A DNA stretch of 51,985 nucleotides from positions 1 to 51,985 of the forward strand of contig JAILBH010000131.1 in NCBI GenBank assembly GCA_024681195.1, given 5' to 3'. Positions 16,201-48,768 of the stretch are shown piece by piece. The translations under genes were made by a program, and so were the position numbers. This DNA comes from Treponema sp. (lineage in GTDB: Bacteria; Spirochaetota; Spirochaetia; Treponematales; Treponemataceae). The notes below the pieces were generated by a model that ran no database searches, was not told the DNA's origin, and worked only from the letters and a program-made list of their open reading frames with translations. The stretch's first letter is position 1, and each line of letters begins with the position of its first letter.

Positions 16201-19200
16201 AACAGTTCCGCTGCCTTCATCAACATCATTTCTTTCATAGCGTGTATAAATTGTGTTATCAACACTCTGTTCATGAACCATAGTCCATTCTTCGCGTGTG
16301 AGCTTATACTCCAGCGCCTTAACAAGTTTTTTAACATTGTCGAGCTTGTTACCCTGTACGTCAGTCAGAATATAAGAAAAATCAAGCTTGGAATTAATTT
16401 TGGCAAAGCCCGAAGAACCGCTTCTTTTAATTCCAACATAGAATTTTGCAGGGTGAACCATTACAGAACTTTGTGTAGAAATTCTCTGATTAGAAATATC
16501 TGTTACATAAGCTTCGGCTCTGTAAATATAAGAAAGACCGTCATTGGTTTTTTCGGAATTACATACAAGAGTTGTTTTTCCTTCTGAGTCAAGTTTTCCG
16601 TCTGCATCTGAATAATAAATTCGCGAAGAATAATCGCTTGCGCCAAAAGAATATCCCTTTGTTTCCGGAGTACTAAAGCTTATGTCAAAGGACTGCTTAT
16701 ACCAGGTGCTTTCATATTCAGCTCCACTTAATGCTCCACCTGCAAGATATTCTGCAGAAAGCTCGGCAGTAAGACTGTCACCTGTGTAATAGGTAACTTC
16801 TGGAATAGTAAGACTTGCGGTAGTCTTTACACGTTCAAACTCTGCAATCTGAAAGCGCACAGTTTCATAATCATATTTGTCCGTGGCGTCATCACGCTTG
16901 TATTTGATATAGTAAGAACCCGGCTCCTGATCATCAGGAATCTTAAATGAACCGTAGAAGCCGCCTGTTTCGGAGAGAGTTCCTGCCATAGGTTCAGTAA
17001 TCTGTTCTCCATCCCACCAGCCTTCTTCTGCAGTAATTACATAAGTTCCTTTATGAGGAATAAGTGCACCAAGAGTCTGGTCTCTGTCTATTCCACGGAA
17101 GGTAACAATTTCTCCAGGTTTATAAACACCGCGGTCTACAAACATAAAGGTTCTTTGTACAGGCTTGCGTGCAGATTGTCTTGAGCCTGTAGAAACTCCG
17201 TCTCTCCAGGTGTTGTGAGAGGTTGGTGTAAATACAGCCTTATCATCACCCTTAGAAACAAATACACTCAAATTATCAGAATAGGTATATTTATATTTTT
17301 CGTTGCTTTCATATTTTTGAATCTGTTCTTCGGTATAATTAATTATTGCAAGACCATTTTTATCGGTTTTTCCCTGTGCCAGAATATGATTTAACGGGTC
17401 ATCACGGAAGTCGCTTATTTCATCAAGAATATAAACGTCTGCATCTGCAACAGGTTTATTTGTAGAAAGGCTTCTTACCATTACAACTGCGCGGTTAATT
17501 CCCATTCGGGTTGTAATTCCAAGATCAGTTACCTGAATTGTAAGAATATCTTTTTCTTCTTTAACCTTTTCTTCATTATCCCAATAGTCAAAGCCCATAT
17601 ATCTTGTGTTGGCATCAAAGCGTACAAAGCCGTAGCCGTTATTAAGATAAGGGTCCAGATTTATTTCTTCAAACTGACGTCTGTCTTTTTGTCCGCGTTC
17701 AACAACAGTTTCGTCCATTATTACAATGTCCTTTGAACTTACATAAAGCGGATTTTCTACAGTTCTGGCTTTATAATAAGAGCCTGCAATAATGTTCTGA
17801 TGCTCATAAATGATTTTGTGCGGGAACTGTGCTTCGAGCATTCTGGCTCCGTAATCAGGATAGTTTACATAAGCTTTTACGGGGCGGGTTTTAAAATTGT
17901 AGTAATAATCATACAGGCCGTCGCTGTAGGTCTGACCATAAATATCTTTAAAGCCGCGGTTTATATAAAGTCTGTATGAAGAATTAAGTTCAAGCGGAAG
18001 GCTGTGAATTGTAAGATAGCGTCCGTTAATTATGATATTATCCTTTGTAATAGGAATTATGTTTTCGCTGCTATCCTTTACATACATAAAGCCTGTAACC
18101 ATATCTTCGCTTACAGCCTGGGTAAATACAACTCTAAGTGGATTTCCTCTGTTTCCTTCTGTATAACGCGCATAGTCGTCAATACTTACACGGTCAAAAG
18201 GTCTTAAGGTCATATAGGTAGATACCCGTGAATCATCCGCTGTTTTAAAAGTGATTTTTGCATTATGAGGAAGCTCTTTTGTAATTGTAATTATAAAGGT
18301 GTTGCTGGTTTGTTTTTCTTTATCGCATTCAGGTTCGTTATTCCACCAGCTGAATGACTTGTTTGTAAAATCTGCTTCTACCTTAAATTCCGAAGCCTTA
18401 AGTTTTATATCATCAGCGGCAATTTCGAGTTTTTGCGCAAGCGACGAAGCCTTTAAAAGATAATTGGTTCTTATAAGAGAGCGGTTTTCATAAGGCGGAA
18501 GAGCTCCTGTTGTAGTGTCGTAAGCGCACTCTGTTTCTTTAATATATCCGCCATAAAGGTTTTGAATCTTAACCGGCTCTGAGCGTGTTGTAAAAATTGT
18601 ATCTCCGCTAATTGAATCTCCGTAAATTGATTTAAGATTTTTGGAAACTGTAATTGTATAATTTACAGAAGGATCACAAGCTTCTTCTGCTTCAAAGGTT
18701 ATGTTTTGAGTACCATACCAGTGGAAGGTTCCCTTAATTGCAGGAGAAATGCTTACAACATCCGATGTAGAAGAAGGAGCCGGAAGTGCTGTAAGAGCCT
18801 TAACCGGTTGAGAAAAAATTACATAAAAGGAAGGGTTGGTTGCTTCAGAAACAACACTGCTTTTTGGCCCCCAGTCTTCTACTTCAAAGGTTTTATACGA
18901 AAGATCTTCATCCTTTTTGGATTTTGTGTCCGAAAAAGCCGAAGTGTCATATTCATTAACTGACTTTCTTTTTGAATTATATTGAGTCACATATTCTTCC
19001 AGCTTTTTTAGCGGCGGAATATATGAGGTAGATTCTTTTCCTTTTTTTGCCTTTTTTGCTTCGGCTTTTTTTTCTGAATCCGATTGGGCCAAAAGCTCGT
19101 CCGGAGTTTCTTTTGTATAATCCGGAGTAAAGAACGAAAGCATAGAATCATAAGTAACTCTTTCTCCGCTGATGTTCATAGTAACAGGAACTCTTTCTGT

Positions 19201-19323
19201 AGTTTTTACTTTTACTACATTAGCCTCGCCCGGTCCGGAAGCCTTTTTATTTTTTCCGCAGCAGGTGAGTGTAAAAATAGAAAATAAAATAACGGTGGCT
19301 GTAAGTAATCTTTTTTTGTTCAT
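13222..19323 (-). CDS. Bacterial alpha-2-macroglobulin lipoprotein
   Basis: A 2033-residue protease-trapping protein. The signal peptide ends in the lipobox LTCC near residue 20, predicting a lipid-anchored periplasmic protein. Many MG-type beta domains follow, including YKPGEIVTFRG and YKPGETATLTL macroglobulin motifs. An acidic stretch (EEDEKDEDER) precedes the conserved A2M domain with TDKNGKATVTFKVPDSLTTYR. The thioester CLEQ (Cys1548-Gln1551) is intact in YPYGCLEQQSSR, so covalent protease capture should work. It is larger than E. coli YfhM (about 1650 residues), with a long N-terminal Lys/Glu/Ser-rich part. AGGAG precedes the ATG. It is co-transcribed with pbpC. Confidence 0.93.
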   Translation of the reverse strand: MNKKRLLTATVILFSIFTLTCCGKNKKASGPGEANVVKVKTTERVPVTMNISGERVTYDSMLSFFTPDYTKETPDELLAQSDSEKKAEAKKAKKGKESTSYIPPLKKLEEYVTQYNSKRKSVNEYDTSAFSDTKSKKDEDLSYKTFEVEDWGPKSSVVSEATNPSFYVIFSQPVKALTALPAPSSTSDVVSISPAIKGTFHWYGTQNITFEAEEACDPSVNYTITVSKNLKSIYGDSISGDTIFTTRSEPVKIQNLYGGYIKETECAYDTTTGALPPYENRSLIRTNYLLKASSLAQKLEIAADDIKLKASEFKVEADFTNKSFSWWNNEPECDKEKQTSNTFIITITKELPHNAKITFKTADDSRVSTYMTLRPFDRVSIDDYARYTEGNRGNPLRVVFTQAVSEDMVTGFMYVKDSSENIIPITKDNIIINGRYLTIHSLPLELNSSYRLYINRGFKDIYGQTYSDGLYDYYYNFKTRPVKAYVNYPDYGARMLEAQFPHKIIYEHQNIIAGSYYKARTVENPLYVSSKDIVIMDETVVERGQKDRRQFEEINLDPYLNNGYGFVRFDANTRYMGFDYWDNEEKVKEEKDILTIQVTDLGITTRMGINRAVVMVRSLSTNKPVADADVYILDEISDFRDDPLNHILAQGKTDKNGLAIINYTEEQIQKYESNEKYKYTYSDNLSVFVSKGDDKAVFTPTSHNTWRDGVSTGSRQSARKPVQRTFMFVDRGVYKPGEIVTFRGIDRDQTLGALIPHKGTYVITAEEGWWDGEQITEPMAGTLSETGGFYGSFKIPDDQEPGSYYIKYKRDDATDKYDYETVRFQIAEFERVKTTASLTIPEVTYYTGDSLTAELSAEYLAGGALSGAEYESTWYKQSFDISFSTPETKGYSFGASDYSSRIYYSDADGKLDSEGKTTLVCNSEKTNDGLSYIYRAEAYVTDISNQRISTQSSVMVHPAKFYVGIKRSGSSGFAKINSKLDFSYILTDVQGNKLDNVKKLVKALEYKLTREEWTMVHEQSVDNTIYTRYERNDVDEGSGTVEINSTGSFSLTPANSGWYTLKLTGTDNEGKIVVCDYEFYVTGGQSYRYNDYNSESISLTPDQSQYNPGDTAQILMESPLPSGDYLITVEREGIFTEEVRHFDSPANVIEVPVASNYVPVIYVSVSSYSVRIGEPTHQYGEPDLDKPKGYFGVTPVFVNPYVRAFSIEVESDKPSYKPGETATLTLTATKGGKPLSNAELTVMAVDRGVLDLINYHVANPIEFFYSRYNFPLRVRGGDSRALLMDPVTYSIKDLQGGDAEEDEKDEDERKDFRPTAVFEPVVVTDKNGKATVTFKVPDSLTTYRITAFGAKDDLFALQEEEFTVQNPINVQQVQPRRLRERDTAECGVLITNLDGKGHDVTISLEARTPVKNTAQDELEGRITIPGEAFIEGEKEHKVYVAPGDSSVVYFNVGAKTQGTVELVYTVTSDILNEKLNSPIKIEKTYTYETVATYGTIDNDKKKGKAVEQLVIPGFAKDSRGDLTFTIDATRLGVLGSSVNYLFDYPYGCLEQQSSRVLPLIAFGEYIDVFGLDSQIADVQKCVKRYLSLWGRSQLESGAFPYWPNESYENYYVSLRLAYIYALGIERGYEKEDFGYDITKLCDYLWRQAQNFTDDSLYDYNKAYLCYIFACLGDGRVLPMMERLYNRRDSMNLSAESLLGLAYAKLGDKKAKELAQDVRKYIQMDGRTATVLRKTRTNLWDWYNSDTEQLALIMQLFVTQNPKDGMVDKLLYTLLQDQSHGYWQNTATTSRVLEAIYAYITGRRLDETNYNATVTLAGSEIMNQSFKGANAKPKTLKLPFEDEIVAKLATDAVQEIGFEKNGEGNLYYTVEMRYALPDEYIGARNEGFNIVYTITDPETGAVVNAANDSDCLLKLTTGKVYKASIKIESSKSHDYVALRAPIPSGAEILDSSLVTTGTVSDEYSGSYRHWLSNKTIRDNEVQFFWDYFGSGSTNVNFTFRASRRGVYPVPPVQAECMYESETFGRGDGYLCIIE

Positions 19324-29127: not shown

Positions 29128-30255
29128 TCAGCTCCTTGTATAAAAGGTGGAAAGCGGTAAAGTTACTCTAAGCCCGGTATACATTACAAGCCCGGCAGCA
29201 ACAGATTCCATAAAAGGCAAAGCAGCTCCATCCGGTTTATTAAACACTGTATAACTGATGTCCTGCGCGCCCTGCAATGAAACCTTACCAATTCTCCACT
29301 TTGGTGTAGAGAAGGAGATTCCTATTATACCCGGAAAAACAGAACCTTTTATAACCTTGTCTGAATCTATGAGTTTAACATCTCCGAATGTAAATACCGG
29401 ACCTGCATAAACTCTAATAAAATCATTCATAGAAAGGCTCAAGATTACCGGCAGCTGGAAACAGTCAAGTCCCGTATTAAATCTAAGATTAAATCCGGCT
29501 CCTGGATTAAGCTTCCAGCCTGTATAACTCACATGGAATCCCGCATCAATTCCTCTATATCTGAAAACAAACTGACGCGGAGAAAGTAACGACCAGTCAA
29601 AGAAAACCGAAGTATCAAAAAGCAGCTGATCTTCAAAGCGTACAGAGTCTGTCCTATAAGCAGAATCCGAAGTGCCGTTATAATCAGAATCAAAGTACTC
29701 TTCCTCAAACTCTGTTACAGCAAGCTCTTTTCCTGAGCTGTCGGTTTGTTTTCCGGACGGCAAAAACTGACCTGTAGAAACATAGCGGCCCTTCCAGTAA
29801 TCCTGTGCCAGAGAAGAAACAATTGTTCCTGTGTTAGGACCGTCACTGATTGCAGAAATAAACTGATTGTTTCCTATATAAACACCAATATGCGAGATTG
29901 TAGAAGAACTTGTAGTCTTAAAAAACAGCAGATCGCCAATTTCGCGCTTATCATCAGGAATGATCCTTACATAATTATAGATTGCTTTTGCAGTACGCGG
30001 CAGCTGAACCTTTATAGATTCCCGTGCACAATAATAAATGAGTCCTGAACAGTCAAAAGTATCGGGTCCAACAGCTCCGTATTCATAAGGCGCACCAACG
30101 TGCTTTTTAATTTCTTCAACAAACTGCTCCCTCATAGATTGAGCCTGTCCCGGAGTCATATCATTATTCTGTGCGCAAAGTCTTACACACCCCAGACAAA
30201 AAAGCAAAATCAAACAAAAACAAACCTTATAAACATCCCGCATATTTTTATCCAT
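29128..30255 (-). CDS. NlpC/P60 cell-wall peptidase with C-terminal beta-rich domain
   Basis: NlpC/P60 enzymes cut gamma-D-Glu-diaminopimelate links in peptidoglycan stem peptides. The 375-residue protein has a signal peptide (about 5-28), catalytic Cys69 in TFDCSGLIYYCA, catalytic His122 in SHIGVYIG and a third polar residue after it. From about 195 a beta-strand-rich region with alternating aromatics follows (FVFRYRGIDAGFHVSYTGWKLNPG), ending in LSTFYTRS; it resembles a small outer-membrane-type barrel, an unusual fusion. The ATG at 30255 has AGGG in front. Confidence 0.82.
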   Translation of the reverse strand: MDKNMRDVYKVCFCLILLFCLGCVRLCAQNNDMTPGQAQSMREQFVEEIKKHVGAPYEYGAVGPDTFDCSGLIYYCARESIKVQLPRTAKAIYNYVRIIPDDKREIGDLLFFKTTSSSTISHIGVYIGNNQFISAISDGPNTGTIVSSLAQDYWKGRYVSTGQFLPSGKQTDSSGKELAVTEFEEEYFDSDYNGTSDSAYRTDSVRFEDQLLFDTSVFFDWSLLSPRQFVFRYRGIDAGFHVSYTGWKLNPGAGFNLRFNTGLDCFQLPVILSLSMNDFIRVYAGPVFTFGDVKLIDSDKVIKGSVFPGIIGISFSTPKWRIGKVSLQGAQDISYTVFNKPDGAALPFMESVAAGLVMYTGLRVTLPLSTFYTRS

Positions 30256-30330
30256 ATGTTCCCTATTATATTCGATTTTTTTCCATATTTATACAATTAT
30301 TTATTTTTTTCTTCCTTTATTATCGGAATT

Positions 30331-31956
30331 ATGGAAACTAAACTTGCTGTTTTTGTCAATCAAATAGGCTATGAGCCTAAAAAATCTAAATTTGCCTATG
30401 CTACAGGCCTTAATGGAACCGAATCTTTTTCTCTTGTTGATAAGGCTTCTAATAAAGTTGTATTTACTTCCAAAGCAGCTCGCCCAAAATGCGACCGGGT
30501 TGCCGGCGAGGATGTCTGCTGTCTTGATTTTTCTGATTTTACCACATCAGGAACCTACTTTATCAGCATTACCAGCCGGAACGGACAGACTGTTCAAAGT
30601 TTACCGGTAATTATTCAGGAAAATATTTATCGCCAGGTATATTTTTCTACCTTATATTATTTTTATCTTTCACGTTGCGGTCAGGAAACCCGGGATAATA
30701 TTTATAAGCTTTGGGGACATTCTTCCTGTCATGACACACCTGCCACAATTTATGGAACCGATCAGAAAAAGGAAGTAAACGGCGGCTGGCATGATGCGGG
30801 CGATTATGGTCGTTATGTTGTTGCCGGAAGCAAGGCTGTTATGGATATTCTTCTTGCTTATGAAGCAAGTCCTTCTTTTGACCAGTTTGATATTCTTGCC
30901 GAAGCGCGTTTTGAACTTGAATGGATGCTCAAAATGCAGCGGGAAGATGGTGGAGTCTGTCACAAAGTTTCGTGCTATCATTTTTGCGGTTTTATAAATC
31001 CACAGGATGAAAAGGATGAGCTTGTAATTGCTCCGGTTTCTTCTACAGCTACCGCCGATTTTGCAGGCTGCTGTGCATTTGCCAGCGAGTTTTACAAAAA
31101 AACAGATCCGGACTTTGCAGCTTCTCTTTTAAAAGCAGCGCTCAAAGCTCAAGCCTATCTGGAAAGCCACGACGACGAGCCGTATAAAAATCCTCCCGAA
31201 ATTACAACCGGTGGTTACGGTGACTGGTCTTCTATTGATGAACGTTATTTTGCCTGCGCCGCCTTGTTCCTGCGTACCGGCAAAGAAAAATATCTTACGC
31301 TTGCAATGGAGCTTCGCAATAAGATTGTGCAGGCTCCAAAAGATCCTGAATGCCCATGGAAAAATGTCTGGTTTGAAGGTTTTGGCTGGGGAATGGTTGC
31401 AGGTTATGGAACAGAGCTTTTTCTTCGCGCAAAAGACAAAATTAACGACAAGAAAATTCTAAAGACAATTACAGATTCAATGCTTGATACTGCAGACAGA
31501 CTTCTTTTTACAGTAGACACTGCCTCCTTTGGAACCAGCCTTGAAAAAGTAATGTGGGGAAGCTCCGGTCACGTTTGTGATAACGCTCATGCCCTGCTGC
31601 TTGCCTATGATTTAACGGGCGACACAAAATATTACGAGGCTGCAAAAAAACAGTTTGATTATGTTCTTGGCTGTAATCCTATGAATATCTGCTATGTAAC
31701 AGGCTTTGGAACAAATACAGTCGAACATCCGCATCACAGACCTTCTGCTGCAATGGAAAAAACAATGCCGGGAATGCTTTCCGGTGGTCCTTGCGAAGGC
31801 CTTTATGATGCTGTTGCCAAAGAAAAGCTTGAACCGCTGCATCTGCCGCCATTACGCTGCTTCATAGATGACTGGGGCAGCTACAGCACCAACGAAATTG
31901 CCATTTACTGGAATTCTACATTTGTATATGTTGCGTCAAAATTGAAATTAGTTTAG
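30331..31956 (+). CDS. Glycoside hydrolase family 9 (endoglucanase-type)
   Basis: GH9 enzymes cleave beta-1,4-glucans with inversion. The 541-residue protein has an N-terminal Ig-like CelD_N domain (about 1-95) and an (alpha/alpha)6 catalytic domain. Visible residues are Asp155 and Asp158 in HDAGDYGRY, the HPHHRPS signature near 470 and the acid Glu522 in NEIAIYWN. No signal peptide is present from ATG 30331. The frame opens upstream and ATG 30256 would add a hydrophobic but uncharged leader, which looks non-coding. It may therefore act inside the cell on imported oligosaccharides. Confidence 0.88.
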   Translation: METKLAVFVNQIGYEPKKSKFAYATGLNGTESFSLVDKASNKVVFTSKAARPKCDRVAGEDVCCLDFSDFTTSGTYFISITSRNGQTVQSLPVIIQENIYRQVYFSTLYYFYLSRCGQETRDNIYKLWGHSSCHDTPATIYGTDQKKEVNGGWHDAGDYGRYVVAGSKAVMDILLAYEASPSFDQFDILAEARFELEWMLKMQREDGGVCHKVSCYHFCGFINPQDEKDELVIAPVSSTATADFAGCCAFASEFYKKTDPDFAASLLKAALKAQAYLESHDDEPYKNPPEITTGGYGDWSSIDERYFACAALFLRTGKEKYLTLAMELRNKIVQAPKDPECPWKNVWFEGFGWGMVAGYGTELFLRAKDKINDKKILKTITDSMLDTADRLLFTVDTASFGTSLEKVMWGSSGHVCDNAHALLLAYDLTGDTKYYEAAKKQFDYVLGCNPMNICYVTGFGTNTVEHPHHRPSAAMEKTMPGMLSGGPCEGLYDAVAKEKLEPLHLPPLRCFIDDWGSYSTNEIAIYWNSTFVYVASKLKLV

Positions 31957-37444: not shown

Positions 37445-37472
37445 TAGAGAATTCTACAATGTATGCCGATAA
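37445..37472 (+). promoter_or_regulatory. Sigma-28-like promoter of the Ig-repeat/OM/HD-GYP cassette
   Basis: GCCGATAA (37465-37472) is an exact match to the FliA -10 consensus; TAGA (37445-37448), one base off TAAA, lies 16 bases upstream, the same spacing as at flaB. Transcription would start near 37479, leaving a 44-base leader with AAGGAG. This links the following three genes to the motility regulon by inference. Confidence 0.6.
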
Positions 37473-37522
37473 TTGAAAAGATAAACTATAATTATTTTTT
37501 CAATACAAGGAGTTCAAAAAAA

Positions 37523-40500
37523 ATGAGAAAAGTAAAAAGTTTATTTGTATTATGCTTACTATGTCTTTCAGCCGCATTGTCATTTGCCCATGGAAAGGGT
37601 GATATCGAAGAAATCGATGTAGATAATGTAAACAGCTGGAAAGAATCATTCGATCTGGAAGGGAAGACTCAAAAAAAAGCGGTAAAGTACAATATTGTCA
37701 TTACTGCAACCGACCTTGGTGGTAACGAGCACGTAGAAGGCCCGTATAACCTTTATGTAGATCCGGAGTCGGACCGTCCTGTTTGTGGTATTACCAACCC
37801 GTATACCAACATGCGCGTTGTAGGTAATCTTAACATTGTCGGTACCTGTGTGGACGATGATGGTGTATCCAAGGTTGAACTCCTCCTTGACGAAGGTACC
37901 GAAAATGAGCAGCTTGTAATAGCAGAAGGAAAAGAATTCTGGTCTTATTATCTTGATACAAACAACCTCGAAGAAGGTCCACATACAATCAAAGTAATCG
38001 GTTATGATATTAATGAAGAACCGGTAGTCAGCAAGCCTGTTGTATTAACCTGGCAGCTCGACCGTAAGCAGCCTCTTACAGCTGTAGAAAACATTGGTAT
38101 GGGACAGCTTGTTTCTGGAAACGTTAATTTTAAGGGAACCGTAATCGATGGTAACGGTATTAAAGAACTCTACTATTCTATTGATAGCGGAAAATTCTGG
38201 ATTCCTGTAAAGCTTTCTAAAACAAAGTCTATGGATACAGTAGAATTCTCGTTCTCTCTTGATACACGCAAGTTCCCGGACGGACCAAACGTATTGTGGT
38301 TTAAAGCTATAGATAACGCAACTTCTGAGGGAGCCTACGCTTTCCTCTATTATATTGATAATACTAAGCCTGATGTTCAGATTGTTTATCCTGGCGACGA
38401 CCCTGTAAACGGTAAATTTACAGTAGCCGGTTTTGCTAAGGATGATGTTGGTGTAACAAACTTAAGCTGGACCTTTGGCGACAAGAGCGGGGAATTTGAA
38501 CTCATCCCTGGTAACCCATACTGGGCACTTACTCTTGATACAATCGGTGCAAAAGACAAGGCAATTAAATTCTCTGTAAAAGCAATTGACCGTGCAAACA
38601 ACGTTGTAGAAGTAACAAAGAACATTGCCCTTAATCAGGAAAACGACAAGCCTCTTATTTCTATTGCAGATCCTGCAGATGGAACAATTTTTGCCGGCGA
38701 CGAAACTCCTGTTTTTGTACGCGGTTTTACAACTGATGATGACAGCGTTAAATCTGTAAAGATTCAGCTCGATGGAAACGAACCAATCATTCAGGATACA
38801 AAGGGTTCTTACTATTATGAATTCTGCAAGGCATCAGAGCTTTCTGCCGGAAACCATAAAATTACTGTAACAGGTATAGATGAAAACGATGTAGAAGGAA
38901 ACCCTGTTTCTGTTCTGATTGTTTCAAAAGGTGCAGCTCCATCCTTTGCCCAGGCTGTTGTAAGCGCCGGAAAAGAAACTGTAGAATTTGTAAACGGAAT
39001 GGAAATCCATCCGGAAGCAGGAAAAACCTTCTCTGTAACTGCATCTTCTCCTCTTGGAATTAATGCAGTTCATATCGAAGTAGCAGGTCAGGAGCCACAG
39101 GACATTACACTCAAGAGTGTTGGTTCTTATACAATTTCTGTTCCTGTAACATCGGGCTTTGCAAAAGGTCTTGTTCCTGTAACAATAACCGTAACAGATT
39201 CTATTGAAAGAGTTTCTGAATACAAGGCTTTGTTCTATGTAACAAATACAGCCGGTGTAACAGTAGAAGATCCAATCATCGTATTTGACGACAGCACAGT
39301 TGCCGAAGACGGCTCAATCATAAACAATTTTGAATTCCCTGCAACAGGCTATCTTATTGGAGCAAAAGCCGCCAAAGTTCAGCTTGTTCCGGATACTCCA
39401 TTTGCCAAGGCAGAACTCAACGGCAACCAGATTAAGCTGGTACCGGGAAACGCAATCGGCGGTTCTGCTCCTGTAGTTGTACGCGTTACAACAGATAAGG
39501 GCAAGGTTGTAGAATCACGTCCTCTTATTTTTAAGAATGATACAGTTCTTCCAAATCTCTTTATCAATAATTATGACAGCACAAGAGCCATCCCGGCTCA
39601 CCAGAATCTTGTTGAACTTACAGGTTCTGTAAAATGCGAAACTGGAGTAGGGGGACTCAAGTACAGAATTCTTGGTGTGGAAGCCACTTTGGATAAGACA
39701 GGCGTTATTTCAAAAGTAACACCTCTTCCTGTTCAGGACAACTTTACACCAATCGAAGTTGGAAAAGATGGAAACTTCTCTCTTAGCATTGGAACTTATT
39801 CCTTTGCAGACGGAATGTATATAGTAGAAATTATTGCCGAAAGTGCCGGCGGTAACCAGGCAGCAAAGGCTGTTGCCCTCAACTGTCTGCCAGAGCTTGA
39901 AGAAGTAAACGGCAAGCTTCCGGTTGCAAAACCACAGGTTATCAGCTGGATCGACGCTTTTGATGTTTACGCAGTTGCAACCTATCAGGGTTATCTTGAT
40001 GCAGAGTATCAGGCTTTTGCACGCGCCGACATGACAGAAGGTGCTAATGCATTAAGCTTTAGCTGTGCAATACCGGACAAGTCTCCAGTTGCTTCTAAAT
40101 ACACTGCACAAAAAGATCCAACTCTTGCAGCTTACTTTGTAAAGGTTGATGACATGGAATACTACAGCGGTATGCCTGTTGTTCTTCCATACGGTGTAGC
40201 AAAAGAACCAAAATATGCAACAATTTATATCGATACTGGTGCTGTAGTAAGCGCTGTAAACTACGAAATTACAGGAGAAGATGTTCCTGGTGGAGACCAG
40301 AAGCAGACTAGTTCAGTTAAACTTGGCAAGCCTGAAGGTACAAGATGGACTGTAGACATTCCTTTGAACAATCTTCCGGCCCGCATTAATAAAATTAACG
40401 TAACTATTAAAGCCGGTTCCCTCTCTCAGACTCTTACAGGTTCTATCAAGGTTATTCGCGACACTTCTGTAGAAGTTACCGATGACGAAGAAAGAATCTA

Positions 40501-43500
40501 CGGTTATGCAGGAGTTGGAACAGTGTTCGACACCCAGGATTCTAACTGGGTTCTTCTTGACGGCTCTAAATATGTATTCTACGCAAATGTAACAGGTCCA
40601 ATCCGCGCAGAGCTTACAGGTGGTGCAGACGGACTGGAGATTCAGACAGAAGGTAAGTTTATAACTCTGGCTGCAACCAAAGATGGAACCTATAAGAATG
40701 TTGTTCTTAAGGTAACAGACCGCTTTGGCGATGTTTATCAGATCCAGCCAATGAACTTCCTTGCAGACTCAGAAAAGCCTGTTCTTAATTTGCAGACTCC
40801 AGAGCTTCACCAGTGGCTCGACAACAACCTTAACATTAGCGGTACAATTGCAGATTCCCTTGGTGTACGCAAGGCAGAATACTCTCTTGATAGCGGAGAA
40901 ACCTGGAACGAAATTCTTCTTAAGGGCGACGCCAAAAAGCTTGGTGTAACCTTCAATGAAAACGTAAATATTACAAGCATGGAAGACGGTCTTGTTAAAC
41001 TTGATCTTCGTGCTTACGACAATGCAGGTCACGTTACAACAGTAAATACTGCCGCATTTAAAGATGTTACTCCTCCAGAAGTTACTGTAGTAGAACCTCT
41101 TTCAATCGATATTGTAAACGGTGAAACCCTCCTTGTATTTGATGTAAAAGATAACGGTTGGTTCAACAGTGTAGAATATCTTATGATTGGACAGGGTAAG
41201 CGTAACGAAAAACGCAACGTAATCCCAATTGAACCTCTTGTAAATACAGTAGTTGGTACCGAAGAACAGCCAATTGACGAAATCATGCAGTTTATCTTTA
41301 AGGATGATGCAGGAAACGCCACAACAATCGAAGGCTGGGACTTTACAATTGATAATCAGTCAGACCTTCCTGTTGCCGAAATCCACGTTCCGGATGAGCT
41401 TCAGGTTCTTACCCGTGACTTCACAATTTCTGGTGTAGTTTACGATGATGATGGTCCTTCAACAATCTGGTATAAGATTGATAACAACGAATACGTTTCT
41501 ATGCCGGAACCTGGAACAAGCTTCTCAATTGAAGTTCCAATTTCTACAATGACAGATAACGAACACGTAATTTCGGTTTATGCAGTTGACGTAAACGGTG
41601 TAAAGGGTGAAGTAGCAGAACGCACCTTCAGAATCTCTCTTGAAGAGCCAAAGGGTGCCGTAGAAGAACCAACAATCGATACCTCTGTACGCGAAGTAAT
41701 CACAATTTCGGGTGTTGCAAGCGATAAGAACGGTATCCAGAAGGTAGAACTTTCTCTTGATAACGGTAACAGCTACAACGATGCAACCGGTACAGAAAAC
41801 TGGTCATACAAAGTAGACACTCGTGCAATTCCTGGTGGAACACAGGTAGTCTTCCTCCGCATTACAGATAATTATGGAATCAGAGGCTTGTATTCAAGCT
41901 TGATAAACATTGATAACGAAGCTCCGGATATTTCTCTTGAGCTCCCGCTTGATGACTCAACTTCTACAGGACAGCTCTTCTTCTCTGGTTATGCATTCGA
42001 TAACGTAGAGATTTCTGATCTGTATATTACAATCAGAAACATGGAAAAAACTTCCGAGGCTATAAAGCGTACAATCCCAATCAATAACATCATTGGTGAA
42101 GTTCTTGATATTTCAGATCTCCAGAACGGCTTCTATAACGTTGAACTTTCCGGAGAAGATAAAGCCGGAAACAGAACAAACGTAAGCCGCAACATCCATC
42201 TTGATAAGTCTAAGCCTCCTGTAACAGTAGATGTCCTTTATCCTTTGAACGGTGAACACAAGAACGGCTGCTTCAATATTTATGGACAGGCCGCTTCAAA
42301 CGTAGCCGAAAGCATTTCTTCTCTTAAGCTGTACGTAGACGGAAAATTTGTAAAAGAAACAGTTCTTTCTGAATCTGGCTTCTTCAAGTTCGAAATCACC
42401 CCAGCCAGCGAAGTAAATACAGGTGAGCTCGACGAAGAAGGAAACCCAATTAAGACAATCGTTTCTGATATGACAGATGGACTCCATGCATACTATGTAG
42501 AAGCCCAGCTCGAAGACGGAAGACACGTTTCTTCTATTACACAGACAATTACTTACAGCTCAGTTGGTCCATGGATTACACTCGACAACTTTACTTACGG
42601 TGACTTTGCCATGAACCGTCCATACCTCAAGGGAACAGCAGGTTACAGCCGCGATCCGGAAGAGGTAATTGCAGCCAAAGCAAAAGACGCTTCAAAAGAA
42701 TTCAAGGATGCCGTAGCTGCCAAGTCAGTTGCAAAGGTTGAATTGAGCTTTGATAACGGTAAAACCTTCGAAGAGCTTTCTACAAAAGAAAAGTGGCTCT
42801 ATCGTGTAGAAAATACAGACTGGACAGAAGGTTACCACTTCCTGCTTATCCGTGCCACAATGAAGAACGGCGAAGTTGCAATTGAACGTACAATTGTTCA
42901 GATTGATAACACAGCTCCAACAGTTAAGCTCATTGCTCCGGGTAACGGTGGCCGCTACAACCAGGCCCTCGAAGTTTCCGGACTTTCAAGAGATGAAGTT
43001 GGACTCGAAAAAGTTCACGTAGCTCTTCGTAAGGGTGATAAGGCTTCTTATGAAGTTCCATCATTCATCCAGGGTCTTTACGTAGACTTCCACTTCTGGG
43101 GTGCTTCTTTGTACGAAGTAGGCGCAGGTCTTACCTTCTTTGATGACAACGTTAAGCTCCAGTTTGTATTTGGTCAGTATACACAGGAACAGCGAGATGC
43201 TGTAAACGCCTTCCTCAAAAAAGAAATTACACCACTGCGTTACGGTGGAAACATCTTTGGTGGTAAGCTGCTTGCAAACATCTCTACAATTCCATTCAGC
43301 TTCTTCCTGGGACACGACTTTGACTGGTTGTCTGCAAGTATTGCCGTAGGTGCTCAGTTCAACTACTTCTCTATTACAAACAGTGGTAAGGGACAAATCC
43401 TTTCTGCAGTACTTGGTCAGCTTGAGTTCCCAAGAGTTCATATCAACGAAGTTAAGGCATTCAGTACATTCTCTATGTACTACGAATTCTCATTATGGTT

Positions 43501-43582
43501 CATCCCTTCAGACGTTGCGGGTGATAATATTAAGAAACTTATTCCACAAGGCTCACTTGGTCTTCGTGTGAATATATTCTAA
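37523..43582 (+). CDS. Giant Ig-like repeat outer-envelope protein with C-terminal beta-barrel-like module
   Basis: The 2019-residue protein has a signal peptide (RKVKSLFVLCLLCLSAALSFA) and well over a dozen Ig-like repeats of about 90-100 residues. Each repeat has a D-G/D-V-x-x-V-E-x-S-L-D-x-G pattern, for example GIKELYYSIDSGKFW, GVRKAEYSLDSGETW, GIQKVELSLDNGNSY and SVAKVELSFDNGKTF. The last 170 residues are rich in aromatic beta strands and end in LGLRVNIF, like an outer-membrane barrel with a terminal Phe. This suggests a long periplasmic or surface rod anchored in the outer membrane. ATG 37523 follows AAGGAG; the frame opens 60 bases earlier, across the promoter. Confidence 0.8.
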   Translation: MRKVKSLFVLCLLCLSAALSFAHGKGDIEEIDVDNVNSWKESFDLEGKTQKKAVKYNIVITATDLGGNEHVEGPYNLYVDPESDRPVCGITNPYTNMRVVGNLNIVGTCVDDDGVSKVELLLDEGTENEQLVIAEGKEFWSYYLDTNNLEEGPHTIKVIGYDINEEPVVSKPVVLTWQLDRKQPLTAVENIGMGQLVSGNVNFKGTVIDGNGIKELYYSIDSGKFWIPVKLSKTKSMDTVEFSFSLDTRKFPDGPNVLWFKAIDNATSEGAYAFLYYIDNTKPDVQIVYPGDDPVNGKFTVAGFAKDDVGVTNLSWTFGDKSGEFELIPGNPYWALTLDTIGAKDKAIKFSVKAIDRANNVVEVTKNIALNQENDKPLISIADPADGTIFAGDETPVFVRGFTTDDDSVKSVKIQLDGNEPIIQDTKGSYYYEFCKASELSAGNHKITVTGIDENDVEGNPVSVLIVSKGAAPSFAQAVVSAGKETVEFVNGMEIHPEAGKTFSVTASSPLGINAVHIEVAGQEPQDITLKSVGSYTISVPVTSGFAKGLVPVTITVTDSIERVSEYKALFYVTNTAGVTVEDPIIVFDDSTVAEDGSIINNFEFPATGYLIGAKAAKVQLVPDTPFAKAELNGNQIKLVPGNAIGGSAPVVVRVTTDKGKVVESRPLIFKNDTVLPNLFINNYDSTRAIPAHQNLVELTGSVKCETGVGGLKYRILGVEATLDKTGVISKVTPLPVQDNFTPIEVGKDGNFSLSIGTYSFADGMYIVEIIAESAGGNQAAKAVALNCLPELEEVNGKLPVAKPQVISWIDAFDVYAVATYQGYLDAEYQAFARADMTEGANALSFSCAIPDKSPVASKYTAQKDPTLAAYFVKVDDMEYYSGMPVVLPYGVAKEPKYATIYIDTGAVVSAVNYEITGEDVPGGDQKQTSSVKLGKPEGTRWTVDIPLNNLPARINKINVTIKAGSLSQTLTGSIKVIRDTSVEVTDDEERIYGYAGVGTVFDTQDSNWVLLDGSKYVFYANVTGPIRAELTGGADGLEIQTEGKFITLAATKDGTYKNVVLKVTDRFGDVYQIQPMNFLADSEKPVLNLQTPELHQWLDNNLNISGTIADSLGVRKAEYSLDSGETWNEILLKGDAKKLGVTFNENVNITSMEDGLVKLDLRAYDNAGHVTTVNTAAFKDVTPPEVTVVEPLSIDIVNGETLLVFDVKDNGWFNSVEYLMIGQGKRNEKRNVIPIEPLVNTVVGTEEQPIDEIMQFIFKDDAGNATTIEGWDFTIDNQSDLPVAEIHVPDELQVLTRDFTISGVVYDDDGPSTIWYKIDNNEYVSMPEPGTSFSIEVPISTMTDNEHVISVYAVDVNGVKGEVAERTFRISLEEPKGAVEEPTIDTSVREVITISGVASDKNGIQKVELSLDNGNSYNDATGTENWSYKVDTRAIPGGTQVVFLRITDNYGIRGLYSSLINIDNEAPDISLELPLDDSTSTGQLFFSGYAFDNVEISDLYITIRNMEKTSEAIKRTIPINNIIGEVLDISDLQNGFYNVELSGEDKAGNRTNVSRNIHLDKSKPPVTVDVLYPLNGEHKNGCFNIYGQAASNVAESISSLKLYVDGKFVKETVLSESGFFKFEITPASEVNTGELDEEGNPIKTIVSDMTDGLHAYYVEAQLEDGRHVSSITQTITYSSVGPWITLDNFTYGDFAMNRPYLKGTAGYSRDPEEVIAAKAKDASKEFKDAVAAKSVAKVELSFDNGKTFEELSTKEKWLYRVENTDWTEGYHFLLIRATMKNGEVAIERTIVQIDNTAPTVKLIAPGNGGRYNQALEVSGLSRDEVGLEKVHVALRKGDKASYEVPSFIQGLYVDFHFWGASLYEVGAGLTFFDDNVKLQFVFGQYTQEQRDAVNAFLKKEITPLRYGGNIFGGKLLANISTIPFSFFLGHDFDWLSASIAVGAQFNYFSITNSGKGQILSAVLGQLEFPRVHINEVKAFSTFSMYYEFSLWFIPSDVAGDNIKKLIPQGSLGLRVNIF

Positions 43583-43613
43583 GGATCAGGAATGTGAAGA
43601 ACTGAGGTAACTT

Positions 43614-44771
43614 ATGGTGTACAAAAAGCGAGTCAAAACATTCTTACTTGGACTTCTCTTTTTTCTGCTTGCAGGAACTGCATTCTCGGTAGAAGAATAT
43701 GTAAGCAAGGTCTATAAGGAAATTGATGTAATTTTCGTAAAAAAAGCAGAGAAGGAGCTTGAAAACATTCTTCGTGAAAACGTTGAAGACAAGTACTACT
43801 ATCTGATGGAAAATTATACAAAGAAAAAGGTACGTCGTCTTATTATCGATAATGAATATGAATTTGCCATGACAGCAATTTATATCATCATAGATAACAA
43901 CATAGACGGAGACTTTGAAGATGAGGATGCTGTAGATCTTTATGCTGCAATTGCCGAAGCTTACGAAATTCAGCAGGCTTACGAAGAAGAGCAGGAAAGA
44001 AAGGCTATAGCAGAAGCTGCCAAAAAAGAAGCCGAAAAAGAAAAGATTCGTACTTCTGTAGAAAAAGAATACAATGTAACAACTACCTCCGAAGGAAAAA
44101 CCGTTTATGTTTCTGCCCGTGATGAACGCACCCAGGACTATAAATGGAATATTAAATTTGGAATGATAGACTTTGGTGTTACAAGCTCTAAAAACCTGCC
44201 TCACCCGGTAATGGGCGAAGGTATTTCTATTGACGCTTCTTATGAATATACAATTCCAAAAACTCTTGTTCTTGGCGGCGACGTATTCTTTGACTTTAAG
44301 TTCATGCAGTTCAACAGCGGTCCTATGAGCTTTAACTTTGAGATTGCTCCAAAGATTGCCTTCCCGGCTCTTTCTTCAAATCTGTTCCTTCGCATAGGCT
44401 TTAGCGATCTTGGAGTTCTTAAAAATAAAGATGCAACAATTCTTGCCAGAAACAAGAATCTTGCCGATATTCAAAATGGGCTTTATGGCTCTGTCGTAAG
44501 CCCGTTAGTTGGTATTCAGTTTGATAATTTAAAAGTTGGAAAAGCAAGCCTGACCTTTGATGCAAATTATCTGCTTTCTGGTGTGATTACAGGTGATTAT
44601 CAGGCATTAAGCTTTAAGGGCTATATGGCAATTCCATTTGCAGAACTGGAACAGGTTAAGCTTGTATTTAATATAGGAGCAAGAGATACACTTCTTATAT
44701 TAAAGCAGGGTGGAGTAGAGAATCATCTTAGCGCTATCTTAGGATTTGGAGTGGAAAATGTTATCAGGTAA
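43614..44771 (+). CDS. Outer-membrane-like protein with N-terminal helical/coiled-coil segment
   Basis: Not recognised as a named family. The 385-residue protein has a signal peptide ending AGTAFS near residue 25, an acidic helical region to about 115, a Glu/Lys/Ala coiled coil (about 118-150, EEEQERKAIAEAAKKEAEKEK) and a beta-strand-rich half (about 175-385) typical of a small outer-membrane barrel, with repeated gly-aromatic strands. GAGGTAAC precedes the ATG. It lies 31 bases after the Ig-repeat gene and overlaps the HD-GYP gene by 14 bases, so the three form one unit. Confidence 0.7.
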   Translation: MVYKKRVKTFLLGLLFFLLAGTAFSVEEYVSKVYKEIDVIFVKKAEKELENILRENVEDKYYYLMENYTKKKVRRLIIDNEYEFAMTAIYIIIDNNIDGDFEDEDAVDLYAAIAEAYEIQQAYEEEQERKAIAEAAKKEAEKEKIRTSVEKEYNVTTTSEGKTVYVSARDERTQDYKWNIKFGMIDFGVTSSKNLPHPVMGEGISIDASYEYTIPKTLVLGGDVFFDFKFMQFNSGPMSFNFEIAPKIAFPALSSNLFLRIGFSDLGVLKNKDATILARNKNLADIQNGLYGSVVSPLVGIQFDNLKVGKASLTFDANYLLSGVITGDYQALSFKGYMAIPFAELEQVKLVFNIGARDTLLILKQGGVENHLSAILGFGVENVIR

Positions 44772-46320
44772 ATATAAGAAATTCTTATTAATTCTCAGTA
44801 TAGTTTTGTTCTCGGCATCACTTTTTGCAGTTGATACATCTGCGCTTGTTAAAAAACAGCTTACCGCTGCAGAAGACGCAATGGATGAAGCAGATATCGA
44901 AACCGCTTACAAAAAAGTAAACGGCGCCCTCCAGATGCTCAACGATGAAACAACTCCGGCACTCAGAGCCTCTGTAGTTTCTGAAGCAAAACTTATCTAT
45001 CAGCAAAAGCTCGAAGGTATTTTGGAAAAATATGATGGTGCAGCCCTCAGCGACATCAACATTATGCTCGAAAAATATCCCGAAGTAAAAAATACAAAGA
45101 TCGAAAAGCTTCTTGGTCAGATTGATGAAAATCAAAAGATTGCTATAGAAAATCAGCGTAAGGCAGAGCTTGCCGCCTCAGAAGCAGCAGCCCAGCGCCG
45201 TCACAACGAAGAACAGCAGTCAATCCGCAAGCAGACACAGGCAATTGAACAGCAGAATTCTGCCCTCGAAAAACAGAACGAAGCCATTTCTAAACAGGCT
45301 GCTTCTAACGCAGAGCTTGCAGAATCTATGAAAACTCAGGCCGAAGAGCTTGCAAAATCTAACGAAAATTCAGAAAAGAATCTTAAGGCAATTCAGGAAG
45401 GCTTTAGCGGCATGCAGGATTCTCTTACAGATCAGGCAGAAGCCATAAAAGAATCTTCAAAGGCACAGTCTAAGTCAACAACAATCATGGTATTCTCCAT
45501 TATTGGAATTGCACTTCTTATTCTTATAATTGTATTTGTGGTAATCATTATTGCACGCAAGAGCATGAAGGCACAGGCTGTCCAGCAGGAACAGTACATG
45601 CAGGCCTTCCGTCTTATTGCCGAAAACACAAGCAATACAAACCGCATTATGCTTGGTGGCGCAACCGATTTGTATGGTCAGGGAGCTCCACTGCGTCTTG
45701 CAGGAACTTCTACCTGGGCTCCGGCTGCTGCTTTGCCTGATGTTACCTTTACCCCGGAAGATGAAGAAGAGCTTAAGGCACTTGCAGTTAAATGTGAAGA
45801 AATTGGTACCAAGATTGACCAGATTACAAACCGCAAGAACAATTCTAAGAACGTAAGTGAGCTTGTTTATAAGCTTTCGATGCAGCTTGGACTTTCACAA
45901 GGCAATTCCATGTTGAATTTCTGTGCTGCCATGATTTACGATGCCGGCTTCTTAGGTGTAGACCCCGAAATCTGGGAAACAGAAACTCTTAGCGATGAAC
46001 AAAAAGAAGAAATGCGAAGCCACGTAAATATTGCCGAAAAATATCTGGACTTTGTTCCTAAAAAATACTGGGAAGTTTTTGATGACGCTTCCAAAAAGCA
46101 TCACGAAAACATGGATGGTTCAGGCTATCCACATGGCTTAAAGGGCGATGAAATTCCACAGATTGCACGCCTTATCCGTGTTGCCGAAACCTACGTTTCT
46201 ATGTCCAGCCGTCGTAACTACCGCCAGGCTCTGGATAAAGAGACCGCAATCGAAAAGCTCCGCGAACAGCCGGAATTCTACGATGGTGCAGTAGTAGATA
46301 CACTGGAACAAATCGTATAA
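44758..46320 (+). CDS. Membrane-spanning protein with periplasmic coiled coil and degenerate HD-GYP domain
   Basis: The 520-residue protein has a signal peptide or anchor (1-24), a periplasmic helical part with a long Gln/Glu/Ala coiled coil (about 125-240), one membrane helix (242-266, IMVFSIIGIALLILIIVF) and a cytoplasmic HD-GYP-like domain (about 365-520). HHENMDGSGYPHGLKG (448-463) is well conserved, and His422 is kept. However, the HD doublet reads YD (394-395) and the usual later AD pair reads AE (477), so metal binding is impaired and it may bind rather than cleave c-di-GMP. ATG 44758 is chosen for the GGAG before it. A terminator closes the operon. Confidence 0.75.
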   Translation: MLSGKYKKFLLILSIVLFSASLFAVDTSALVKKQLTAAEDAMDEADIETAYKKVNGALQMLNDETTPALRASVVSEAKLIYQQKLEGILEKYDGAALSDINIMLEKYPEVKNTKIEKLLGQIDENQKIAIENQRKAELAASEAAAQRRHNEEQQSIRKQTQAIEQQNSALEKQNEAISKQAASNAELAESMKTQAEELAKSNENSEKNLKAIQEGFSGMQDSLTDQAEAIKESSKAQSKSTTIMVFSIIGIALLILIIVFVVIIIARKSMKAQAVQQEQYMQAFRLIAENTSNTNRIMLGGATDLYGQGAPLRLAGTSTWAPAAALPDVTFTPEDEEELKALAVKCEEIGTKIDQITNRKNNSKNVSELVYKLSMQLGLSQGNSMLNFCAAMIYDAGFLGVDPEIWETETLSDEQKEEMRSHVNIAEKYLDFVPKKYWEVFDDASKKHHENMDGSGYPHGLKGDEIPQIARLIRVAETYVSMSSRRNYRQALDKETAIEKLREQPEFYDGAVVDTLEQIV

Positions 46321-46334
46321 AAAACTTATAAATC

Positions 46335-46370
46335 AAAGCCCGTGCAGACCAAAAGCACGGGCTTTTTTTT
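46335..46370 (+). terminator. Intrinsic terminator after the HD-GYP gene
   Basis: GCCCGTGC (46338-46345) pairs with GCACGGGC (46355-46362) across a nine-base loop, followed by eight T and preceded by AAA. It ends the three-gene cassette. Confidence 0.92.
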
Positions 46371-46397
46371 AATTAAAACCCCATTTTCTGCCGATAA
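46370..46397 (+). promoter_or_regulatory. Sigma-28-like motif upstream of the DUF4015 gene
   Basis: GCCGATAA (46390-46397) is exact; TAAT (46370-46373) sits 16 bases upstream and overlaps the terminator T-run. Only seven bases separate the -10 from ATG 46405, so any transcript would be leaderless. The -35 is weak, so this is less secure than the site at 37445. Confidence 0.4.
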
Positions 46398-46404
46398 TTA
46401 ACTT

Positions 46405-48768
46405 ATGGCTATTATATTAATTGTGCTGGCAATGCTGTTTGCTGCCCCTGCAACAACAGTCTATGCCCAGAATTCAAAACCGTTATATCAGCTGCCAAGC
46501 AAGGTTTCTGCTTCGGCAGATTCTCAGCAAGATTCAGATGTATTTTTAGTTGGCTCAGATTCAGGTTTATATAAAGTAACTTCATCAAATAATGTGTTTC
46601 CATTGTGGACACAGTCGCGTGTAGACCAGATTGTACGCGTAAATGTTGCCGGAGAAAACGGTCTTCCAAAAGACGGCTGGTACCTTCGTACCCGCAAAGG
46701 TTTGTTTTTTACCTCCGACCTCAAAAATTTTGAAGAAAAAGATAATGGCCTTCCGTTTTTAACAATCAAAAAATACGACGGCAAAACCGCAACCCTCGAA
46801 AAACAGATTCAGGAGCTCAAAGATTTTAGCGTAAATCCGCTTAATTCCAAAGAAATGGTAACCGCTACCAAAGACGCAGTTTATTATTCCAAAGACGGCG
46901 GAAACACCTGGACCTCCCTTGGTTCAATGAGCAAAAGTACAGCCGGCATAAAAGCAGTAGCCGTAGCCACCATAGAAGGGGAGTCTGTTGTATTCATGTC
47001 TCACCCAATCTTTGGACTTTCCTATATATTCCCGAATAAACCAAAAGCCTTGTGGAACGACGTAGAAGCAGGCTTTTTAAAGATGCAGTCGCTTTCTTCT
47101 CCGGACGAAATTGCAGATATTCTTCCGGTAGTGCGCACAAACGCAAACGGCTCATATTATACCGAGATTTTTATTTCGCAATCCTATCTTCCGTGCCTGT
47201 ACAAATTTAACTGGGCCGAAAAGAAAGGCGAACTCATTTTTAAAGGCACAGAACCTGTAGATTCGTTTGACGGCCTTACCACAATAAATGATGTACTTGT
47301 TTATACCCATCTGGAAGGAATTGGCTCTTTAGATATGGATTCTCTTACAAGCCCCGGTTCTCCTGTTCAGTTTAATGACTGGAACAAGGCTTTTGCAGCA
47401 GTTCCCGGAATGGTAAATTCTGCCTGGGTTCCGCAAAGCCGCAGTGGTTTTTCAAAAGGAATTCTTTTAAACGAGCTTTGGCTTTTGTATCCAGGAACCA
47501 TCAATTCTCCTTATGCCGAAAAGGCAAACGGTAAAAAAGCAATTTATGCCTCTGCCTACCAGTGCCGCAACCAGGAAGGAATAGACAAATTTAAAAAGGT
47601 AGTTAAAGACCGCAATATGAACGCCCTTGTAATAGATATGAAGGATGATTACGGCTTTCTCCGCTACCAGACAAAGGACCCTCTATTGCTCGAAAAAGGC
47701 TCTGTTTCTACCTATGCTGTAGATCTGGAGCACTTTATAGAAGAATTTAAAAAAGAAAACATCTATCTTATTGCCCGAATAGTAACTTTTAAAGACCGTT
47801 CCCTTACCAAATACAGTAACGGAAAGTACGCAGTCTGGGATTCAAAATACAATCGTGCCTGGACAGGAATTAAAGGCTACGAAGATGTTACCGATGAAGA
47901 AGGAAATGTAATTGGAACTCAGACAGAATATTACGATGAAAACTGGGTAGATCCATATTCCGAAGAAGTTTGGGAATACAATATTACAGTTGCCAAAGAG
48001 CTTATAGCCCGTGGTTTTGACGAGATTCAGTTTGACTATATACGCTTTCCAACCGACGGATTAAACCTTAGCAATGCACAGTACCGCTGGAAGAGCAAGG
48101 GAATGGACATGGAAAGTGCCCTTATTTCCTTCCTTTCATACGCCCGCGAAAATATAAATGCACCAATCGGAATAGATATTTACGGAGCAAACGGCTGGTA
48201 TCGCAGCGGCACCAGAACCGGTCAGGATTCCGAAATGCTTTGTGAATACGTAGATGTAATTGGCCCAATGTTTTATCCAAGCCATTTTGAACAAACCTTC
48301 TTAAACTACGCACCTTTTGCCGACCGCACCTACAGAATCTATTATTACGGCTCTTTCCGAAACACAGTTATGGTTCGTAACCGCGCCCTTATCCGTCCAT
48401 GGGTACAGTCCTTCTATATTGGTGTAAGCTACGACCGCCAGTATTATAACGAAGATTATATCAAAAAAGAATTTTTTGGCGTTCGCGACTCAATTAACCG
48501 AGGTTATATGTGCTGGAACAATTCCGGCGAATATGGAGTAACTCCACCAGATGTTACAGATACCGAAACCTTTACGGGAACTGCACCGGAATCCTCATGG
48601 GAATTCAAAAAGCCTGCAATAGGTACAACAATGAAACCTTTTGCCGCTTACCCTGATGATGCAGATCTTTCTATTTTGGACAGCATCCTCAATTTATATG
48701 CCGAAGATGATGAATCTTATTACTCTCCTTTATTGCAGAACAGGGGCGTAAAACGGTATCATAATTAG
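46405..48768 (+). CDS. DUF4015 putative glycoside hydrolase with N-terminal propeller-like region
   Basis: The 787-residue exported protein has a short signal peptide (MAIILIVLAMLFAAPATTVYA). The N-terminal 380 residues include a BNR-type turn (YYSKDGGNTWTSL) and look like a beta propeller. A TIM-barrel DUF4015 domain follows (about 390-720): IYASAYQCRNQEGIDKF, VIDMKDDYGFLRY, FDEIQFDYIRFPTDG with candidate acids, and GIDIYGANGWYR. The family is a predicted polysaccharide hydrolase without a settled substrate. An in-frame stop lies two codons before the ATG, so the start cannot be further upstream. No Shine-Dalgarno is seen. Confidence 0.82.
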   Translation: MAIILIVLAMLFAAPATTVYAQNSKPLYQLPSKVSASADSQQDSDVFLVGSDSGLYKVTSSNNVFPLWTQSRVDQIVRVNVAGENGLPKDGWYLRTRKGLFFTSDLKNFEEKDNGLPFLTIKKYDGKTATLEKQIQELKDFSVNPLNSKEMVTATKDAVYYSKDGGNTWTSLGSMSKSTAGIKAVAVATIEGESVVFMSHPIFGLSYIFPNKPKALWNDVEAGFLKMQSLSSPDEIADILPVVRTNANGSYYTEIFISQSYLPCLYKFNWAEKKGELIFKGTEPVDSFDGLTTINDVLVYTHLEGIGSLDMDSLTSPGSPVQFNDWNKAFAAVPGMVNSAWVPQSRSGFSKGILLNELWLLYPGTINSPYAEKANGKKAIYASAYQCRNQEGIDKFKKVVKDRNMNALVIDMKDDYGFLRYQTKDPLLLEKGSVSTYAVDLEHFIEEFKKENIYLIARIVTFKDRSLTKYSNGKYAVWDSKYNRAWTGIKGYEDVTDEEGNVIGTQTEYYDENWVDPYSEEVWEYNITVAKELIARGFDEIQFDYIRFPTDGLNLSNAQYRWKSKGMDMESALISFLSYARENINAPIGIDIYGANGWYRSGTRTGQDSEMLCEYVDVIGPMFYPSHFEQTFLNYAPFADRTYRIYYYGSFRNTVMVRNRALIRPWVQSFYIGVSYDRQYYNEDYIKKEFFGVRDSINRGYMCWNNSGEYGVTPPDVTDTETFTGTAPESSWEFKKPAIGTTMKPFAAYPDDADLSILDSILNLYAEDDESYYSPLLQNRGVKRYHN

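Follow-up and report, generated by a model that had tools for sequence, protein, structure and literature searches.

We analyzed a stretch of 51,985 nucleotides (hereafter the window) from the genome of a Treponema sp. (contig JAILBH010000131.1, assembly GCA_024681195.1) and confirmed that three adjacent genes, the open reading frames (ORFs) ORF1, ORF2 and ORF3, form an array resembling a transcription unit, bounded by a sigma-28-type promoter and a strong intrinsic terminator. The reading that we favor, with a probability of roughly 0.45, is that the array is a sigma-28 operon joining a giant immunoglobulin-like (Ig) rod, encoded by ORF1, to an envelope bridge of ORF2 and ORF3, in which a pseudo-HD-GYP domain would read cyclic di-GMP (c-di-GMP) or a partner and signal outward. 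The original prediction, made from the sequence of the window, had placed the three genes between a promoter box and a strong terminator, and this was borne out by the coordinates, by the 14-base overlap between the end of ORF2 and the start of ORF3, and by the folding of the terminator (-20.8 kcal/mol, z -6.4), which has a loop of 9 bases and was found by folding after a generic terminator scan had missed it. The source genome (G000) comprises 2.27 Mb in 230 contigs, and its named relatives are mostly Treponema of the rumen, the horse and other herbivore guts. The features of the array are as follows.

37445-37472, forward strand: sigma-28-type promoter of ORF1, with the -35 element TAGAGA at 37445-37450, N16 after TAGA, and the -10 element GCCGATAA at 37465-37472
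37523-43582, forward strand: ORF1 (ATG at 37523), 2019 amino acids, exported Ig-repeat protein with a type I-like signal peptide
43073-43579, forward strand: C-terminal region of ORF1, with eight strands predicted by AlphaFold2 at low confidence and a C-terminal phenylalanine (GLRVNIF)
43614-44771, forward strand: ORF2, 385 amino acids
44758-46320, forward strand: ORF3 (ATG at 44758), 520 amino acids
45790-46317, forward strand: pseudo-HD-GYP domain of ORF3, in which N362, Y394, F398 and E477 replace H, H, K and D, and D395, H422, H448, H449, GYP and R486 are kept
46335-46370, forward strand: intrinsic terminator, with an 11-bp stem (46335-46345 paired with 46355-46365) followed by a T run

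A conserved sigma-28-type promoter

The exact box GCCGATAA occurs in 3 copies in the window against 1.28 expected, and its count across the source genome (66, versus 58 for the reversed pattern) shows no enrichment; thus the claim of a promoter rests on positional conservation. The box by itself is weak evidence and becomes convincing through its conservation in relatives. The motif CCGATAA was found 5' of ORF1 in 29 of 42 loci, against 0.35 expected from dinucleotide shuffling (maximum 2 in 100 shuffles), and 5' of ORF4, the gene after ORF3, in 23 of 34 loci, mostly at the same distance; the loci are related to one another, and these counts are not independent events. Across the 42 loci, no CCGATAA was detected upstream of ORF2 or ORF3 (0/39 and 0/40), and the motif was likewise absent from the control genes of the same loci (0/16 for other genes on the same strand and 0/32 for those on the opposite strand). 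The two features at ORF4 are given below.

46370-46397, forward strand: second sigma-28-type promoter, for ORF4, with the box 7 bases before the ATG
46405-48768, forward strand: ORF4, a DUF4015 glycosyl-hydrolase-like protein

The conservation extends to the -35 region. When 19 non-redundant ORF1 promoters were aligned on the box, T was found at -20 in all 19, A at -18 in 13, G at -16 in 11 and A at -15 in 16, and the alignment of 24 ORF4 promoters gave T at -20 in 18, A at -18 in 20 and A at -17 in 21. The genus consensus before the two genes is TAAA(GA)-N16-(G)CCGATAA, N16 being counted after TAAA, and the TAGA of the window agrees with TAAA at 3 of 4 positions. Most of the loci lacking the exact box carry near forms, G248 and G302 showing examples (TAAAGATTTT and GCCGTTAA) with this spacing. 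Before ORF1 in two T. denticola-like genomes (G019 and G126), TAAAG is likewise so spaced (TAAA-N16). The exact arrangement TAAAG-N15-GCCGATAA was not found in the source genome, the group spacing after TAAA being N16. The flaB gene of the source genome carries TAAAGTTTT and GACGAAAA, spaced as in the ORF1 promoter, and a FliA gene was found in all of the 30 genomes tested; the fliA gene of T. denticola is TDE2683. In Treponema denticola, the mapped sigma-28 promoter of flaB2 has CCGATAA as its -10 element, as at ORF1 (PMC9481697), although that promoter drives a flagellin gene and those described here precede envelope genes. Altogether, sigma-28 control of the ORF1 unit appears well supported by sequence comparison: what had been proposed from a single box is a bipartite, conserved promoter with a -10 element known from a mapped one.

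A sigma-70 promoter at 37445-37473 was considered and rejected. The 9-of-12 match carries no information, since the scan counted 22 sites of this kind versus 16.7 after shuffling; in addition, conservation falls on the sigma-28 columns.

In most relatives, 7 bases separate the box of ORF4 from its start codon, so that the mRNA would have almost no leader. Other GCCGATAA boxes in the source genome lie from a few to ~50 bases before genes for exported proteins (L204 on C89, L205 on C60 and L206 on C21), one of them RlpA-like and one lipoprotein-like, which are possible further envelope genes of sigma-28.

Predicted outer-membrane features of ORF1 and ORF2

ORF1 has a signal peptide in which no lipobox was read, and six Big_7 stretches (Pfam, E 3e-55). 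The C-terminal region of ~170 residues is conserved, and its family was found in 111 of 146 genomes of the genus and 47 of 198 genomes of the phylum. In the AlphaFold2 model of the last 330 residues, this region formed eight strands with a predicted local distance difference test (pLDDT) score of ~61-87 by block (mean 64.6 overall), and the closest structural analogues were OmpA and porins, the similarity being weak and the pLDDT of the model low. Anchoring of ORF1 in the outer membrane is plausible on this model. Thus, the Ig repeats proposed for the 2019-residue protein stood, while its barrel-like end amounts to a low-confidence model.

ORF2 had no Pfam match, and the search of PDB with its sequence gave nothing convincing. 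ORF2 begins with a signal peptide, and its AlphaFold2 model, based on 9 sequences (mean pLDDT 78.9), contained helices at 28-98, a long helix at 104-152, and ten strands at 176-382, the amphipathic strands being predicted to close into a barrel. This barrel resembled OpcA (Z 18.4, 182 residues, 2.8 Å) and Pla/OmpT (Z ~16-17.6). The identity to barrels of the OpcA/OmpT type was ~10%, implying a shared fold but not a shared function, and ORF2 differs from these 10-strand barrels in its periplasmic helical stalk. ORF2 is well predicted to be a 10-strand outer-membrane barrel on such a stalk, in agreement with the outer-membrane-like protein that had been proposed.

A pseudo-HD-GYP domain in ORF3

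ORF3 comprises a signal peptide, a periplasmic helical region with a coiled coil, a single transmembrane segment (residues 248-266), and a cytosolic HD-GYP-like domain, for which HD_5 was the sole Pfam match above the cut-off (E 3.5e-24). The domain matched the HD-GYP phosphodiesterase PmGH (4mcw; E 1e-18) and a phosphodiesterase for 3'3'-cyclic GMP-AMP (5z7c; E 1e-21). When the domain was aligned with 16 further HD-GYP domains from the phylum, N362, Y394, F398 and E477 of ORF3 stood at the positions of H189, H221, K225 and D305 of PmGH, respectively, whereas D395, H422, H448, H449, the GYP motif (G456, Y457 and P458), I466, R486 and R489 were kept. The position of PmGH E185 was not conserved in the ORF3 family, the alignment being less certain there. 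ORF3 thus lacks the full PmGH set of eight metal ligands (E185, H189, H221, D222, H250, H276, H277 and D305) and K225, and carries, by its sequence, the GYP motif and the residues contacting c-di-GMP. Among 27 ORF3 homologues, D395, F398, H422, H448, H449 and R486 were invariant; the replacements of H189 by N, H221 by Y and K225 by F were nearly so, and that of D305 by E was found in most. Y394 was changed only in G037, which keeps the HD histidine. The four positions were canonical in most of the 16 control domains.

In PmGH, alanine at H189, H221 or K225 essentially abolished the activity, whereas alanine in the GYP motif and the contact residues did not (PMC4159591). As the residues essential in PmGH are lost and those for the GYP motif and c-di-GMP contact are kept, the ORF3 domain would more likely serve as a receptor or scaffold than as a phosphodiesterase. 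The simplest reading of these substitutions is a conserved non-catalytic domain, and catalytic action on c-di-GMP seems unlikely. The analysis recovered the proposed single-pass protein, whose coiled coil is periplasmic and whose HD-GYP fold is cytosolic, though it is probably not an enzyme acting on c-di-GMP. The source genome encodes 19 GGDEF domains, implying that c-di-GMP is very likely made in this organism.

Three genomes, G086, G157 and G153 (L073 5935-7991, L074 7667-9723 and L075 837-2893), have a gene for a 377-residue exported protein followed by one for a 268-residue membrane protein bearing a related pseudo-HD-GYP domain. This couple is possibly a second version of the ORF2-ORF3 pair; homology of the 377-residue protein to ORF2 could not be shown in any of the three.

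Gene order across relatives

ORF2 was detected in 69 of the 146 genomes of the genus, including the source genome. In 45 of the 68 others, ORF1 immediately precedes ORF2 in the same orientation, the gap being 12-76 bases, and in 20 it lies elsewhere; the remaining 3 had no place for ORF1 in the list used, one of them (G296) having a partial ORF1 match at a contig end. ORF3 follows in 39 of 41 relatives read directly; the contig of G326 ends early, and G309 gave no match to ORF3. A cultured rumen bacterium, Treponema sp. C6A8 (L208), has the trio as well. Of the genus genomes searched, 43 have ORF1 but yielded no ORF2, and ORF1 is also present in this way in other orders. The arrangement ORF1-ORF4-mnmE without ORF2-ORF3 occurs in G070, G081 and G182, and in G116, G121 and L214, ORF2-ORF3 follow ORF4 and mnmE as a pair. 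G037 and G053, from two further and distant families of the phylum, carry the pair as well, and there too the genes overlap, implying that the pair is old. When mapped on a tree of ORF3, the presence of the trio requires 3 changes, versus 10.1 with shuffled labels; a single gain of the trio followed by losses is conceivable.

The trio is a stable arrangement in one large part of the genus, built from an old ORF1 and an old ORF2-ORF3 pair. As to the proposal that the three genes form a unit kept together in relatives, their order is retained in that part of the genus but is not obligatory, and it breaks down outside.

Elsewhere, ORF1 adjoins a second giant Ig-type gene. In relatives with no pair beside ORF1 (L109 9138-19901, L111 9544-19899 and L112 9711-16193), the second giant protein after ORF1 has ~2,100 to >3,500 residues, some with weak Ig similarity to ORF1.

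A possible envelope-spanning device and its alternatives

We propose, tentatively, that a late-flagellar sigma-28/FliA operon would place the giant Ig rod and the two-protein bridge under one control. ORF1 would be an exported rod held in the outer membrane through its C-terminal barrel. From the ORF2 barrel, the long helix and the helical domain would extend inward, and from the inner membrane, the helical domain and the coiled coil of ORF3 would extend outward, with the non-catalytic HD-GYP fold in the cytosol. ORF3 would sense c-di-GMP or a partner without cleavage and relay its state through the periplasm to ORF2, and would thereby control how active the outer-membrane partners are, or how they are displayed, in coordination with flagellar expression; these partners would include ORF1 wherever it shares their transcript. 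The predicted folds and domains support the layout over the outer membrane, periplasm, inner membrane and cytoplasm that had been foreseen for the trio; contact between ORF2 and ORF3, binding of c-di-GMP or another ligand, the direction of signaling, and any effect on ORF1 are what we infer.

One clade bears on the bridge. In G310, G228 and G323 (L190, L191 and L192), ORF2 is only 118-119 residues long, being a helical domain without the barrel and the long helix. The ORF3 proteins of these genomes lack most of the coiled coil and have a periplasmic part of 123-128 residues, versus 164-255 where ORF2 is of full length (excluding two entries in which the signal peptide or the transmembrane segment was not placed). 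This joint shrinkage is suggestive, and only that, of a stalk no longer having to meet a helix borne by a barrel.

Four points weigh against the proposed bridge and its control. The joint shrinkage probably represents one evolutionary event, as G323 groups with G310 and G228 in the ORF3 tree (84/84 support). In a subgroup of five ORF3 homologues (L176, L177, L184, L187 and L189), the GYP motif is altered while the D305 position holds Asp, a combination at odds with one simple receptor model. Several ORF3-like proteins were found without ORF2. Finally, no CCGATAA box was found before the ORF2-ORF3 pairs standing apart from ORF1 (G116 and G121), implying that the pair can do without sigma-28 control.

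The main alternative, which we hold to be somewhat unlikely, is that the genes are co-regulated neighbors sharing no machine, ORF1 being an adhesin-like surface protein under sigma-28 and ORF2-ORF3 an independent module moved into its unit in one part of the genus. The retention of the ORF1 box without an adjoining pair (G019, G126, G116 and G121) is consistent with this view, as are the loci described above with ORF1-ORF4-mnmE alone or with the pair behind mnmE. Nevertheless, the trio order persists in 45 genomes despite divergence of ORF2 to ~35-40% identity, which is longer than a neutral neighborhood predicts.

Improbable in our view is that the pair is a mechanical or structural tether between the two membranes, holding the periplasm at a given width or stiffness where the periplasmic flagella rotate, with the HD-GYP fold merely a cytosolic dock. 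The barrel, long helix and coiled coil, the sigma-28 control, and the joint loss of barrel and coiled coil would suit a tether, but the strongly invariant pocket residues (RKNxSxN, DxGFL, H, HHEN and DG.G) suggest a ligand or a specific partner. We consider it very unlikely that ORF3 is an active phosphodiesterase whose metal site is altered and whose control comes from the periplasm (outside-in signaling): the equivalents of D222, H250, H276, H277, GYP and R314/K317 are kept, Asn and Glu can in principle bind metal, and G037 has its HD histidine, but the equivalents of H189, H221 and K225, each needed in PmGH (PMC4159591), are replaced in nearly all members.

Among known systems, LapD-LapG-LapA of Pseudomonas fluorescens resembles the ORF3 set in combining an inner-membrane degenerate c-di-GMP domain, a periplasmic output and a large surface adhesin (PMC3032553). 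LapD, which also signals outward, has HAMP and degenerate GGDEF-EAL domains, absent from the Pfam matches of ORF3, and works with a periplasmic protease, in contrast to the pseudo-HD-GYP domain, coiled coil and outer-membrane barrel found here. YfiBNR of Pseudomonas aeruginosa likewise spreads three products over the outer membrane, the periplasm and the inner membrane and includes a c-di-GMP domain (PMC3375315, PMC4655355), but the lipoprotein YfiB, the soluble periplasmic YfiR and the diguanylate cyclase YfiN are set apart from the trio by their domains. ORF3 shares its fold with HD-GYP phosphodiesterases such as PmGH and with the catalytically inactive Bdellovibrio protein Bd1817 (described in PMC4159591). 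Bd1817 lacks the GYP tyrosine, whereas ORF3, a protein anchored in the membrane, keeps it and is missing the HD histidine, K225 and the ligand H189. No system like ORF2-ORF3 was found described in the literature search, subscription papers being outside its coverage. We regard as doubtful the stronger proposal of a new class of trans-envelope switch in spirochaetes, in which a dead HD-GYP receptor for c-di-GMP would be physically bridged via coiled coil and stalk to its own barrel and control a giant Ig rod in concert with the expression of flagellar genes.

Other genes in the window

A GH9 cellulase at 30100-31956 carries an N-terminal Ig-like domain, which fits a plant-fibre gut habitat. On the reverse strand, at 11009-19323, the gene for a bacterial alpha-2-macroglobulin (2033 amino acids) overlaps that for a penicillin-binding protein with a transglycosylase domain, an ordinary and known pairing.

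Significance

Regardless of the mechanism, ORF2 and ORF3 emerge from this study as a conserved gene pair marked by a residue signature of its own, and the results indicate that sigma-28 control in Treponema extends to the large envelope proteins ORF1 and ORF4. If the proposed mechanism is true, spirochaetes would have an envelope-spanning pair dedicated to linking flagellar gene expression with the remodeling of the outer surface. The dead HD-GYP domain would then be a receptor working from the inside out, a function known mainly from proteins with degenerate GGDEF-EAL domains.

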